A stretch of DNA of 43,550 bases, from NCBI GenBank assembly GCA_002720475.1, contig PBIL01000011.1, positions 149,855 to 193,404 of the forward strand. Direction: 5' to 3'. The DNA comes from Roseovarius sp. GTDB taxonomy: Bacteria > Pseudomonadota > Alphaproteobacteria > Rhodobacterales > Rhodobacteraceae. The notes under the pieces were generated by a model, which saw nothing but the letters and a program-made list of their open reading frames with translations, was not told the DNA's origin and searched no databases. Below are positions 3,163 through 13,625 of the stretch, in pieces (within the stretch, counting starts at the first letter, position 1; every line of letters begins with the position of its first letter). The translations under genes and the position numbers were made by a program.

Positions 3163-3514
3163 CCCCTTGCTGGCTTGTACCCAAGATTGGTGCAGTTTCC
3201 TGACCACGCAAAGCACTTTCTGTGTGCCACGGTCCACAGACCCCGATCGACGGTCATTTTGAACCACCTCCCCTCGGCCCGAGCGCCGGTCAGGACAGAT
3301 TGACCCTGGCTGCGGCAAGATGCTGCAACGCCGCATTGCAAGCGGCTGAAAACAAATAGAATCAATCAGGTTTGCGCATGGACCCAAGCGGCTCCCGCCG
3401 CGACGGGATCGTGATTCGGAATCCGGTTTACGAGGGACGCGAATCATGTCTAAGCTTTGCTCCAAGCGGCGAGGGCCGCGCCCTTCCCGACACCGAGAAT
3501 CCCCTGGGGAACCG
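3163..3514. other. Divergent intergenic region of the formate dehydrogenase locus
   Basis: This stretch of about 350 bases separates the minus-strand operon from the plus-strand polyferredoxin gene and should hold both promoters. It is richer in A/T than its surroundings around 3345-3372. An inverted repeat TGCAA-N7-TTGCA lies at 3324-3340, and GCCGC-N7-GCGGC overlaps it at 3330-3346. A possible plus-strand promoter is TTGCAA (3336-3341) with TAGAAT (3357-3362), but the 15-base spacing is short. No gene is seen here. Confidence 0.4.
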
Positions 3515-9216: not shown

Positions 9217-10262
9217 CCTGCGGTCATAGCGGGTGCCGTGTCGCGCATCAATGCGTCACGGCGCGCGGCGTCGCGGGCCTTGAGTTCCGCCAGCGTCGCA
9301 TGCAGCGTGTCGGACCAGTCGCGCGCAGGCTCTGCCTCCTCCGCCGCCGCCTCGACGAGAAAGACCGTCTCGGGCAAGGGGCGCGCATAATAGAGCGCCG
9401 AATGCGGCATCACGAGGCTCGCCCCGGTGCGCACCCCCGCCCAGGCCAGCCAGCCCAGTTTCTGCCGCGCGCTGGTATGCGCCCGCGCGCGGATCGGATC
9501 ATGGCCCGCGCGCCGCAACGCGCCGCCGATCCCGGCATAGATCAGCCGCGCGGCATAGATGCCGGGCCGGCAATCGACCGCCAGCGCGGCAATCCCCGCC
9601 TCGGCACGGTGATAGAGCGTGTCGGCCTCGCGCAGGAGCCGCGCCACCAGCTCGCCCAGGTCGGACGACATTGCGGGCGCGGCGAGAAACCGCGCGGGAT
9701 CGAGCCGCGCCTCGCGCATCCACTCCAGCGGCAGGTAGAACCGCCCCTCGCGCGCATCCTCGCCCACGTCGCGCGCGATGTTGGTCAGTTGCATCGCCAC
9801 GCCCAGATCGCAGGCCCGCGCCAGCGCCTCGCGCCGCCGCTCGCGCATGAGCACGCACATCATCGCACCCACCGCCGAAGCGACCCGCGCCGAATAGGAG
9901 CGCAGCCCGCTCAGATCGTCATAGCGCCGCCCCTCCGCGTCCCAGGCCAGCCCCTCGAGCAGCGCCTCGGGCAACCTGCGCGGCATCTCGAACTCCTCGA
10001 TCACGGCGGCGAATGCGCGGTCGGCGGGCGCGTTGCGCGGCCGCCCCCGATAGGCCAGGTCGAGCCGCTCGTGCAGGCGCAGCACCGCCGCCGTCTTTTG
10101 CTGCTGCAGATCAACCGCGTCATCGGCCAGCCGGCAGAAGGCATAGAGTGCCAGCGCCGGATCGCGCAGCCGCCGGGGCAGAAGTTTCGAGGCCGCATGA
10201 AACGAGCGCGAGCCCTGCCGGATCGCCGCCACGCAATGCGCCATGTCGCCTTCGTCGATCAT
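9213..10262 (-). CDS. crtB: Phytoene synthase
   Basis: A 349-residue enzyme of the squalene/phytoene synthase family, joining two geranylgeranyl diphosphates to phytoene. The two Asp-rich Mg-binding motifs are present: LADDAVD (residues 45-51) and NIARDVGEDAREGRFYLP (161-178). GSRSFHAASKLLP at 17-29 is the family's N-terminal signature. Start ATG 10262 overlaps the crtI stop (ATGA); a longer in-frame extension upstream lies inside crtI and is not coding. The C-terminal tail of about 50 residues is acidic then basic, as in Rhodobacter homologues. Confidence 0.95.
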   Translation of the reverse strand: MIDEGDMAHCVAAIRQGSRSFHAASKLLPRRLRDPALALYAFCRLADDAVDLQQQKTAAVLRLHERLDLAYRGRPRNAPADRAFAAVIEEFEMPRRLPEALLEGLAWDAEGRRYDDLSGLRSYSARVASAVGAMMCVLMRERRREALARACDLGVAMQLTNIARDVGEDAREGRFYLPLEWMREARLDPARFLAAPAMSSDLGELVARLLREADTLYHRAEAGIAALAVDCRPGIYAARLIYAGIGGALRRAGHDPIRARAHTSARQKLGWLAWAGVRTGASLVMPHSALYYARPLPETVFLVEAAAEEAEPARDWSDTLHATLAELKARDAARRDALMRDTAPAMTAG

Positions 10263-11806
10263 CGCACCCCCACCGGATCGGGCACCAGTTGCGCCAGCAC
10301 CTCGGCGCTCGAGATCACGCCGGGCAGCCCCGCGCCGGGATGCGTCCCCGCCCCCGCGAGATAGAGGCCCGCCGCCTCCTCGCTCACGTTGTGGGGCCGG
10401 AACCAGGCGCTTTGCAGGATGCGCGGCTCGATGGAAAATCCCGCGCCATGCGGGCTGAGATACCGGTCGCGGAAGGTCTCGGGCGTGAATACCTCCGAAG
10501 GCCCCAGATGCGCTTCCAGACCGGGCAGAAGTTCGCGCTCCAGCACCGCCTGCACCCGCGCGCGATAGGGCTCGGCCATGGCCTGCCAGTCCACCGGGTC
10601 GGCATGGCCCAGATGCGGCACCGGGCTCAGCGCGTAGAACGTGTCGCCCCCTTCGGGCGCGACCGTGGGATCGGTGACGGAGGGGCGATGGACATAGAGG
10701 CTCATGTCCTCGGCCAGCTTGCCCTTGAGAAAGATGTCGCGCACGAGGCCCCGGTAACGCGGGCCGTTGAGGATGGTGTGGTGCCCCGCATCGGGCCACA
10801 TGCCCGCCGTGCCCCGCGTGCCGAAATACCAGACGAAAAGCCCCATCGACCAGCGCGACCGCCTGAGCCGCGCTTGCGTCCAGCGCCGTCTGGCATGGTT
10901 GCGCATGAGGTGATCATAGGTATGGCCGGCATCGGCGTTCGAGACCACGATATCGGCCCTCACCACCTTGCCCGAGGCGAGCCGCAGCCCCGCCGCGCGC
11001 CCGTCGCGCAGGAGGATCTCGTCCACCTCCGCGCCCTGCCGCACGGTGCCGCCCTGCGCCGCCACCACCCGCGCCATGGCCGCGGCGATGGCCGCCACGC
11101 CGCCCATGGCGTAATGCACGCCGAATTCCTTTTCCAGATGGCTCACGAGGGCATACATCGAGGTGACATGGAACGGGTCGCCGCCGATGAAGAGCGGATG
11201 AAACGAGAGCGCCATGCGCAGCCTCTCGTCGCGCACCCGCCGCGCGGCATGGGCATAGACCGAACGGTCCGCGCGCAGCCAGGCGAATTTCGGCAGCACC
11301 TTGATCAGGTCCCGCAGCCGATGCATCGGCCGCCGCCCCAGATCCTCGTAGCCGAACCAGTAGCGCGCCTCGGCATCGCGCACGAAACGGTCATAGCCCG
11401 CCAGGTCCCCGGGCGAAAGCCGCGCCACCTCGGCCCGCATCGCCGCCGGGTCGGCCCGCGCGGCAAAGCGGCTGCCGTCGGGCCAGCGGATCTCGTAGAA
11501 CGGGTCGAGCGCACGCAGATCCACATCCGTGTCGAAATCGCGGCCGCAGGCGGCCCAGAGATCGCGCAGCCCCTGCGGCACGGTGACGATGGTCGGCCCC
11601 AGATCGAAGCGGTGGCCGTCGCGCATGAGGCAGGAGCCCCGCCCGCCGGGCATCTCCAGCCGGTCGAAGACCGTCACGCGATAGCCCTTGGCACCCAGCC
11701 GCATCGCCGCCGCCAGCCCGCCCAGCCCCGCGCCGATCACCGCCGCATGGGGCGCGACAGGTTGGGCCGCATCGGGGTGAAGGGCGGGGTCAAGGCGTGT
11801 CAACAT
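10259..11806 (-). CDS. crtI: Phytoene desaturase (neurosporene-forming type)
   Basis: A 515-residue FAD enzyme that desaturates phytoene. The dinucleotide site GAGLGG (25-30) opens the protein, followed by VFDRLEMPGGRG and GHRFDLGPTIVTVP. Near the C-terminus LYLAGAGTHPGAGLPGVI is the conserved bacterial phytoene desaturase end. About 22 residues precede the FAD motif, which supports ATG 11806. That start lies only 17 bases from the PpsR-like palindrome, leaving little leader. First gene of crtI-crtB-tspO, divergent from crtA. Whether it makes neurosporene (three steps) or lycopene (four) cannot be read here; crtA nearby favours the spheroidene route. Confidence 0.95.
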   Translation of the reverse strand: MLTRLDPALHPDAAQPVAPHAAVIGAGLGGLAAAMRLGAKGYRVTVFDRLEMPGGRGSCLMRDGHRFDLGPTIVTVPQGLRDLWAACGRDFDTDVDLRALDPFYEIRWPDGSRFAARADPAAMRAEVARLSPGDLAGYDRFVRDAEARYWFGYEDLGRRPMHRLRDLIKVLPKFAWLRADRSVYAHAARRVRDERLRMALSFHPLFIGGDPFHVTSMYALVSHLEKEFGVHYAMGGVAAIAAAMARVVAAQGGTVRQGAEVDEILLRDGRAAGLRLASGKVVRADIVVSNADAGHTYDHLMRNHARRRWTQARLRRSRWSMGLFVWYFGTRGTAGMWPDAGHHTILNGPRYRGLVRDIFLKGKLAEDMSLYVHRPSVTDPTVAPEGGDTFYALSPVPHLGHADPVDWQAMAEPYRARVQAVLERELLPGLEAHLGPSEVFTPETFRDRYLSPHGAGFSIEPRILQSAWFRPHNVSEEAAGLYLAGAGTHPGAGLPGVISSAEVLAQLVPDPVGVR

Positions 11807-11812
11807 GGACCA

Positions 11813-11863
11813 AGCCTACACATGTCAACTCAAGTTGACAATCGGCGATTGCCGGCGTTTCAT
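11813..11863. promoter_or_regulatory. Divergent crtI / crtA-bchIDO promoter region
   Basis: On the plus strand TTGACA (11835-11840) has a weak partner TTTCAT (11858-11863) at 17 bases. On the minus strand TTGTCA (11841-11836) has TAGGCT (11818-11813) at 17 bases; if used, crtI transcription would begin at about its start codon. Both -35 boxes overlap the palindrome at 11823-11840, so one bound repressor could block both operons. Promoter boxes are read by eye. Confidence 0.45.
11823..11840. promoter_or_regulatory. CrtJ/PpsR-type operator, TGT-N12-ACA palindrome
   Basis: TGTCAACTCAAGTTGACA has perfect 8-base arms around CA. It fits the known TGT-N12-ACA site of CrtJ/PpsR, the aerobic repressor of bch and crt genes in Rhodobacter. 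Position between crtI and crtA is where such sites occur in related genomes. Only one site is seen; CrtJ usually uses two for cooperative binding. Confidence 0.8.
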
Positions 11864-11916
11864 TCCCCCAAGATCCATGGCAGGGTGCCAAGGCACAATA
11901 CGCGGGGAGCGGAGCC

Positions 11917-12624
11917 ATCCAGACCGTCAGCCTCTGCTTTTTCCGATTCGCCCCCGGCACGGCACGGCGCTGGGCCTTTACCATGATGGGGCTGGCGCGC
12001 GGCGCGCTGGCCGCCACCCCCGGCATCGGGTTCTGGAAGCTCTGCGGCTCGGGCACGGGCGAAGGGTTCACGCCCCGGCCCAATCTCGGGGTCTACGCGA
12101 TCCTCGCCACCTGGCCCGACCACACGACGGCAGAGGCGCAGACCGCCACGGCCCCCGCCTTCGCCCGTTACCACGCCCGCGCCAAGGAAAGCTGGACCGT
12201 GTTCCTGACCCCTGTCTCGGCGCGCGGCACATGGTCCGGTCGGCAACCTTTCGTGCCCGCCCCTGCGCCGCTTACCGGTCCCGTCGCGGCCCTCACCCGC
12301 GCAACCCTGCGACCCCGCGCGGCGCTCCGTTTCTGGAATCGCGTGCCCGATATCAGCGCCGCCATCGGGGCCGATCCCGACGTGACCTTCAAGATCGGCA
12401 TCGGCGAGGTGCCGCTCCTGCATCAGGTGACCTTTTCCATCTGGCCCTCCACCGAGACCATGGCGCGATTCGCGCGCGCCGACGGCCCGCACGCGCGCGC
12501 CATCCGCGCCGTGCGCGAGGGCGACTGGTTTTCCGAAGAGCTTTACGCGCGCTTCGCCATCACCGGGACACGCGGCACCTGGCTTGGCACCAACCCACTG
12601 GACTCACTGAAAGAAACTGCATGA
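11917..12624 (+). CDS. crtA: Spheroidene monooxygenase, with an ATC in place of the start codon
   Basis: CrtA adds the keto group to spheroidene, giving spheroidenone, in aerobic or semi-aerobic cells. The frame reads IQTVSLCFFRF from ATC 11917, matching the usual CrtA N-terminus MQTVSL.FRF, then GSGTGEGFTPRPN and, near the end, VTFKIGIGEVPLLHQVTFSIWP and EENWF-like DWFSEELYARF. From the in-frame TGA at 11836 to ATG 11983 there is no ATG, GTG or TTG. GGGGAGCGGAG lies just before the ATC. The first ATG pair (11983, 11986) would cut 22 conserved residues and has no ribosome binding site. Likely an AUC start giving 235 residues, or a start-loss. Its stop overlaps bchI (ATGA). Confidence 0.85.
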   Translation: MQTVSLCFFRFAPGTARRWAFTMMGLARGALAATPGIGFWKLCGSGTGEGFTPRPNLGVYAILATWPDHTTAEAQTATAPAFARYHARAKESWTVFLTPVSARGTWSGRQPFVPAPAPLTGPVAALTRATLRPRAALRFWNRVPDISAAIGADPDVTFKIGIGEVPLLHQVTFSIWPSTETMARFARADGPHARAIRAVREGDWFSEELYARFAITGTRGTWLGTNPLDSLKETA

Positions 12625-13625
12625 CCCCTGCCTTTCCCTTTTCCGCCATCGTCGGCCAGGACGACATGAAACGTGCCATGATCCTGACCGCCATCGACCC
12701 CGGCCTTGGCGGCGTTCTGGTCTTCGGCGACCGGGGAACCGGCAAGTCCACCGCCGTGCGCGCGCTTGCCGCCCTCCTGCCGCCGATCCGCCAGGTCGCG
12801 GCCTGCCCGGTCAATTCCGAGCGCCCGGAGGACTGCCCCGACTGGGCCAATGTCACCGATCCCGCGCTCGCCGAGCGCCCGACCCCGGTGATCGACCTGC
12901 CGCTCGGCGTGACCGAGGACCGCGTGACCGGCGCGCTCGACATCGAGCGCGCGCTCACCCGCGGCGAAAAGGCGTTCGAGCCGGGGCTGCTGGCGCGGGC
13001 CAATCGCGGCTATCTCTACGTGGACGAGGTCAACCTGCTGGAGGATCACATCGTCGACCTGCTGCTCGACGTGGCGCAAAGCGGCGTCAACATCGTCGAG
13101 CGCGAGGGACTCTCGATCCGCCACGCGGCGCGCTTCGTGCTGGTCGGCTCCGGCAACCCGGAGGAGGGCGAATTGCGCCCGCAACTGCTGGACCGGTTCG
13201 GCCTCTCGGTGGAGGTGCGCTCGCCCTCGGACATCGAGGAGCGCGTCGAGGTGATCCGCCGCCGCCATGCCTTCGAGACCGACACGGACGCCTTCATGGC
13301 ACATTGGGGGGCCGAGGATGCGCGCCTGCGCGATGCGATCCTCGCCGCCCGCGCGGCGCTGCCCCGCACCGCCACGCCCGAGGCCACGCTCACCGATTGC
13401 GCGCGGCTGAGCCTCGCGCTTGGCACCGACGGGCTGCGGGGCGAATTGACCCTGCTGCGCGCGGCCCGCGCGCTGGCGGCGTTTGAGGGCGCTCCCGCGA
13501 CCGGCCCCGACCACCTGCGCGCGGTGGCCCCGCTCGTGCTGAGCCACCGGCTGCGCCGCGACCCGCTCGACGAGGCCGGATCGGCCGCCCGCGTCGCGCG
13601 CGCCGTCGCCGAGGTGCTTGGGTGA
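12621..13625 (+). CDS. bchI: Magnesium chelatase subunit I
   Basis: A 334-residue AAA+ ATPase. It forms hexamers that drive Mg insertion into protoporphyrin IX with BchD and BchH. Walker A GDRGTGKST is at 36-44 and Walker B YLYVDEVNLL at 131-140; the arginine-finger region is GSGNPEEGELRPQLLDRFGL. Length fits the family (about 334). ATG 12621 overlaps the crtA stop (ATGA) and its own stop overlaps bchD (GTGA), so translation of bchI may depend on ribosomes reading crtA. BchH is not in this window. Confidence 0.97.
   Translation: MTPAFPFSAIVGQDDMKRAMILTAIDPGLGGVLVFGDRGTGKSTAVRALAALLPPIRQVAACPVNSERPEDCPDWANVTDPALAERPTPVIDLPLGVTEDRVTGALDIERALTRGEKAFEPGLLARANRGYLYVDEVNLLEDHIVDLLLDVAQSGVNIVEREGLSIRHAARFVLVGSGNPEEGELRPQLLDRFGLSVEVRSPSDIEERVEVIRRRHAFETDTDAFMAHWGAEDARLRDAILAARAALPRTATPEATLTDCARLSLALGTDGLRGELTLLRAARALAAFEGAPATGPDHLRAVAPLVLSHRLRRDPLDEAGSAARVARAVAEVLG

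Follow-up and report, generated by a model that had tools for sequence, protein, structure and literature searches.

A probable AUC start codon in Roseovarius crtA and its apparent trade-off with Shine-Dalgarno strength across the Rhodobacteraceae

The start of the crtA reading frame

Where does translation of crtA begin when its reading frame offers no ATG, GTG or TTG at the place where the protein appears to begin? The question is raised by a 43,550-nt stretch of Roseovarius DNA (the window, taken at its full length) from a draft genome of 24 contigs that is 73.8% complete. Here crtA, encoding spheroidene monooxygenase (235 codons plus stop, 11917..12624, forward strand), opens with the codon ATC at 11917..11919. 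An in-frame TGA (11836..11838, forward strand) closes the frame upstream, and direct reading of the 26 open codons between this stop and the ATC found no ATG, GTG or TTG; the first canonical start in the frame after the TGA is the ATG at 11983..11985 on the same strand, which encodes Met23. The original prediction had described this gap, had placed the normal CrtA N-terminus immediately after the ATC and had seen a Shine-Dalgarno site at a suitable distance before it. All three observations were borne out. The residues QTVSLCFFRF are encoded right after ATC 11917, and the protein read from this codon matched the NCBIfam model NF045923 (CrtA) from its first position (E 5.9e-109, profile positions 1-225 of 226), with a score of 362.7 bits that lies above the equivalog cut-off of 300; a Pfam search with the same protein gave no match. 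Within the Shine-Dalgarno region GGGGAGCGGAG (11904..11914, forward strand), the 6-mer that pairs best with the anti-Shine-Dalgarno sequence reaches -6.0 kcal/mol and stops 6 nt short of the ATC, compared with energies of -2.4 for ATG 11983 and +0.2 for the downstream gene bchI.

The divergent neighbor of crtA is crtI (phytoene desaturase; 10259..11806, reverse strand; TIGR02734, 625.2 bits). Between the two genes a motif match revealed a TGT-N12-ACA palindrome, TGTCAACTCAAGTTGACA (11823..11840), which we take to be a candidate operator of the PpsR/CrtJ type. The same motif was found at this place between crtI and crtA in three other loci (L005, L171 and L172). Since the window holds two TGT-N12-ACA matches where 1.69 are expected by chance, the match by itself is weak; the second lies at 3221-3238, and two matches are no more than chance gives.

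Start codons and Shine-Dalgarno sites among relatives

Three readings of the ATC had been left open, namely initiation at AUC, a point change that damaged the start, and a sequencing error. Alignment with the crtA genes of relatives, as the original prediction had suggested, strongly supports the first. A genus search gave a crtA match in 30 of 60 genomes, the window's included, of which 29 were readable at the start; the crtA of genome G005, split over two contigs, was left out of this count. The aligned codon is ATT, ATC or ATA (hereafter ATH, or AUH in RNA) in 25 of the 29 Roseovarius genes, 23 of them clean and two with a canonical codon 1-4 codons upstream. The other four comprise one ATG, two with GTG one codon upstream, and one with neither. 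In the nearest relative the codon is ATT. Isolates carry all three codons: ATA in Roseovarius tolerans, R. litoreus and Sagittula marina, ATC in R. atlanticus, R. confluentis and Mameliella alba, and ATT in R. azorensis, Roseovarius sp. 217 and Salipiger mucosus.

We then extended the comparison to the family, where a crtA match was present in 171 of 394 genomes and 130 genes, the window's own included, were read, the unread ones being mostly weaker matches. The resulting one-per-genus sample of 129 crtA genes outside the window's genus contained 44 ATH starts (41 clean) and 41 with ATG at codon 1. Together with the 29 genus rows, 46 named loci and 7 plasmid rows, this made 211 distinct crtA genes, after duplicates of earlier coding sequences had been removed (34 of 80 named loci and 1 of 8 plasmid records) and L033 had been dropped as partial. 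Clean ATH starts were found in 78 of the 211 (39 ATT, 33 ATC and 6 ATA), and five more ATH genes had a canonical codon 1-4 codons upstream. Codon 1 was canonical in 59 (48 ATG, 8 GTG and 3 TTG), a canonical start lay 1-4 codons upstream in 61, and 8 were of other kinds. The position of the start is thus kept across relatives: 142 of the 211 genes have ATG, GTG, TTG or ATH at the aligned codon, and 8 have neither such a codon there nor a canonical one 1-4 codons upstream. All eight annotated crtA genes on PLSDB plasmids have canonical starts (5 ATG, 2 GTG and 1 TTG). As read by eye in L179 and L134, a crtA labelled Maritimibacter may start at an ATT that lies four codons before the usual position, and another crtA may use CTG where its tree neighbor has GTG.

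Searches of the class (385 genomes) and the phylum (398 genomes) turned up few crtA genes outside the family. The class search gave five matches in other families; three of these alphaproteobacterial genes were read, two having ATG and the other a TTG immediately ahead of the aligned codon, and two weak partial matches (L288 and L289) were left unread. The phylum search gave two distant matches whose alignments begin only at query residues 16 and 19, and these were left without an assigned start. Three further family genes from that search, outside the 211, comprise two with ATG and one with TTG just before the aligned codon.

The absence of a canonical start is rare among the eight neighboring pigment-cluster genes that served as a control. 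When bchC, crtF, crtE, tspO, crtB, crtI, bchI and bchO were scanned in the named genomes, a canonical start lay between 12 codons before and 5 codons after the reference start in 484 of 487 instances; of the three exceptions, one had ATH within 2 codons. The same scan of crtA left 24 of 80 genes without a canonical start nearby, all 24 of them with ATH within 2 codons. Three genes, crtC, crtD and bchD, were excluded from this control because their reference starts were misplaced or poorly conserved. A canonical start near the reference was missing in 58 of 59, 7 of 40 and 16 of 75 instances, respectively, and of these exceptions 29, 0 and 1 had ATH no more than 2 codons away; given the poor references, the three genes might hide further odd starts. 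For crtC, which overlaps crtD at its start region, a search within the window gave no match; among relatives (for example L251:7878-8813 and L252:7430-8387), 56 of 58 genes have no ATG, GTG or TTG in the 26 codons before the conserved WWY motif. Of six annotated crtC starts, four are ATC, ATA, CTG or ATT after this motif, one is a GTG shortly before it, and one is a TTG further downstream. Proteogenomics of Ruegeria pomeroyi reported starts at ATG (94%), GTG (5%) and TTG (1%) (PMC3305630). For infC, the aligned start is ATA in all 30 genus loci read (L253-L282, from 40 genomes with a match), so that in Roseovarius IF3 itself is very likely translated from an AUA start.

The Shine-Dalgarno site differs with the start codon. 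Its median energy is -6.3 for the 78 ATH genes and likewise -6.3 for the 11 with GTG or TTG at codon 1, compared with -3.8 for the 48 with ATG there, and sites of -4 or stronger precede 96% of the 78 ATH codons and 42% of the ATG codons. The difference between ATH and ATG genes has p 2.7e-8, computed over rows that are not independent. Among 19 branch-disjoint pairs, with ATG accepted either at codon 1 or up to four codons upstream, the stronger site belongs to the ATH member in 14 and to its partner in 3, and the two are equal in 2 (p 0.013); with starred, well supported branches alone, four pairs remain and the association is not significant. No difference in Shine-Dalgarno strength was detected between ATH and GTG/TTG genes. 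Predicted RNA folding near the start likewise did not distinguish ATH from ATG genes. Strong sites thus accompany the weak codons and weak sites accompany AUG, a pattern resembling one in which the overall rate of initiation is kept roughly constant. The family seems to hold CrtA initiation low, either by AUH (or GUG/UUG) with a strong Shine-Dalgarno site or by AUG with a weak one, and we infer that low CrtA output is what selection favors.

We also considered that AUH might be nearly neutral and drift with no regulatory role, since CrtA would be needed only in tiny amounts. This possibility shares the AUH start with the explanation we prefer and denies only its purpose, and we regard it as a serious one, if not the one we favor. 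On the best FastTree tree of CrtA, built without codons 1-3, starts switch frequently between ATH and canonical codons, with 24 changes, 5 of them forced by well supported branches, and for ATG and clean ATH at codon 1 only there are about 19 switches. In the 43-row clade around Roseovarius, to which Salibaculum, Mameliella and other genera also belong, the third base shifts between T, C and A at least 10 times on the best tree. Such shifting is in accordance with drift, yet 38 of the 43 rows are ATH and a single one is ATG, even though 33% of the four-fold sites in ATH crtA genes carry G; in numbers of changes (1 to ATG versus about 10 among T, C and A), this case against drift is only suggestive. 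The enrichment of ATT at the start over internal isoleucine use and the retention of strong Shine-Dalgarno sites also argue against a purely neutral codon.

Placing the point of initiation

It could be argued that translation starts upstream at another non-canonical codon and that the ATC is an internal isoleucine. The frame is indeed open for 26 codons before the ATC in the window, although several observations among relatives make such a start very improbable. No canonical in-frame codon precedes the ATH before the upstream stop in 30 of the 78 clean ATH genes, and in 10 of these 30 the stop is no more than 5 codons away, in L182 a single codon; the other 48 have some in-frame canonical codon 5-30 codons upstream, where the window has none. 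Amino-acid identity among the 78 rows is 0.06-0.10 at codons -12 to -5 and 0.14-0.35 at codons -4 to -1, which cover the Shine-Dalgarno stretch and a frequent alanine codon (codon -1 is Ala in 44 of 78), and it jumps at codon 2 to reach 0.50-0.95 over codons 2-11, so that conservation upstream does not go beyond the Shine-Dalgarno stretch and codon -1. The leader differs in length by 2 nt between the window and its nearest relative, which is out of step with a coding extension upstream of the ATC. The ATH codon is also used unlike an isoleucine codon: ATT, ATC and ATA stand at 39:33:6 at the start versus 140:671:58 among internal isoleucine codons of the same genes (chi-square p about 1e-12, the genes not being independent). 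Finally, a scan of Shine-Dalgarno offsets peaks at the ATH codon, with the preceding codon nearly as good.

Initiation at ATG 11983, which would make CrtA 22 residues shorter and which the original prediction had named as the outcome that would overturn it, appears more improbable still. This ATG is the first canonical in-frame codon in the window, whereas codons 2-22 are conserved, with dN/dS of about 0.22 when compared with the nearest relative and of 0.39 with the next one. Its Shine-Dalgarno site is the weak one noted above, residue 23 is glutamine in 28 of the 78 ATH genes, and 48 relatives have ATG at codon 1. A damaged start (pseudogene) or a sequencing error, to which a draft genome might lend some credit, is very unlikely, the least probable of the readings weighed here, given that ATT, ATC and ATA recur in many independent assemblies, isolates included, that the nearest relative has ATT, and that the crtA frame is intact with its Shine-Dalgarno site kept and codons 2-22 under purifying selection. 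On this comparative evidence we rejected ATG 11983, an upstream start, a damaged start and a sequencing error alike. Taken together, the sequence comparisons indicate that ATC 11917 is very probably the genuine start of crtA, one that would be weak and limited by IF3 and would be helped by a strong Shine-Dalgarno site.

IF3, bchI and comparison with known systems

How might an AUC codon serve crtA? We propose that the initiator tRNA would pair imperfectly with AUC, as at infC, and that the strong, well spaced Shine-Dalgarno site would make initiation possible at a low rate. Unless an initiation complex forms on AUG, GUG or UUG, IF3 destabilizes it, according to PMC5472188, and complexes on AUH in crtA would be expected to be rejected as well. 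Little CrtA would then be made, in an amount that depends on IF3 activity; it is by analogy with known systems that we infer both properties for an AUC-started CrtA. According to PMC10604819, CrtA is active under (semi)aerobic conditions, light and oxygen both affect its transcript, and control of carotenoid enzymes after transcription has been discussed.

Weak entry into crtA may in addition cap translation of bchI, which encodes the Mg-chelatase ATPase subunit (12621..13625, forward strand; TIGR02030, 532.4 bits). The two genes overlap by ATGA at 12621-12624, an arrangement present in 196 of 209 readable loci, and in the window bchI has no recognizable Shine-Dalgarno site of its own, so that reduced entry into crtA may limit bchI here. 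Throttling of bchI through the overlap is therefore plausible in the window. As a general rule it is opposed by the bchI sites of -4 or stronger in 45% of 75 ATH loci, and bchI site strength did not differ with the crtA start type (75 ATH versus 82 ATG loci, p 0.21).

A wider idea, which we offer tentatively and consider rather doubtful, is that late carotenoid and pigment genes of the Rhodobacteraceae form a set gated by IF3, comprising crtA with its AUH starts, crtC, which lacks a canonical start near its conserved N-terminus, and the short form of AerR with its CUG start. If true, initiation fidelity would be a physiological gate on a photoprotective carotenoid and, through the ATGA coupling, on Mg-chelatase, and the set would supply a mechanism by which IF3 (pifC) could be required, as has been reported, for Rhodobacter sphaeroides to form its photosystem. 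An AerR study cites earlier (1997) work in which IF3 (PifC) was important for photosystem synthesis in that species (PMC6199135), and crtA offers a concrete target for asking why IF3 has this effect.

In our literature search, which lay mostly outside subscription papers and took in annotation from PLSDB alone, no report of non-canonical crtA starts was present among the matches listed. A term search of the main text of PMC6052148, on Rhodobacteraceae photosynthesis gene clusters, found crtA once and 'start codon' nowhere. The class of mechanism is already known from infC and Streptomyces sigR; the gene, the recurrence and the Shine-Dalgarno trade-off appear to be new. Here an ordinary metabolic gene apparently trades its start codon against Shine-Dalgarno strength, its switching between AUG and AUH allows the tuning of initiation strength to be tested by comparing natural variants, and the case points to genes whose starts annotation may miss.

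Three systems invite comparison. In PMC5472188, infC is called a rare example of a well-characterized non-canonical bacterial start, and infC and Streptomyces sigR are described as limited by IF3 repression of their non-canonical starts. Like crtA, infC has an AUH start (AUU, AUC or AUA) and it is autoregulated by IF3; however, its codon is constant in the 30 loci we read, whereas that of crtA varies among ATT, ATC, ATA and ATG, and crtA encodes a pathway enzyme without known feedback on IF3. The sigR gene resembles crtA in its conserved non-canonical start, strong ribosome site and ATGA overlap with the next gene, and changing its GTC to a canonical codon led to overproduction of SigR (PMC5472188). 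Unlike crtA, sigR uses GTC rather than AUH, encodes a sigma factor rather than an enzyme, and has an experimentally proven start; as presented in that paper, this start is known from Streptomyces but is not reported for other genera of actinobacteria, and rsrA, the gene downstream, is served by a promoter and a ribosome site of its own. The third system, AerR of Rhodobacter capsulatus, is a photosynthesis regulator with a non-canonical start in a purple bacterium of the same broad group. Its short isoform starts at CTG, for which the authors discuss IF3 (PMC6199135), yet this CTG is an internal second start that gives rise to an isoform, in contrast to the ATC of crtA, which would be the only start of its gene.
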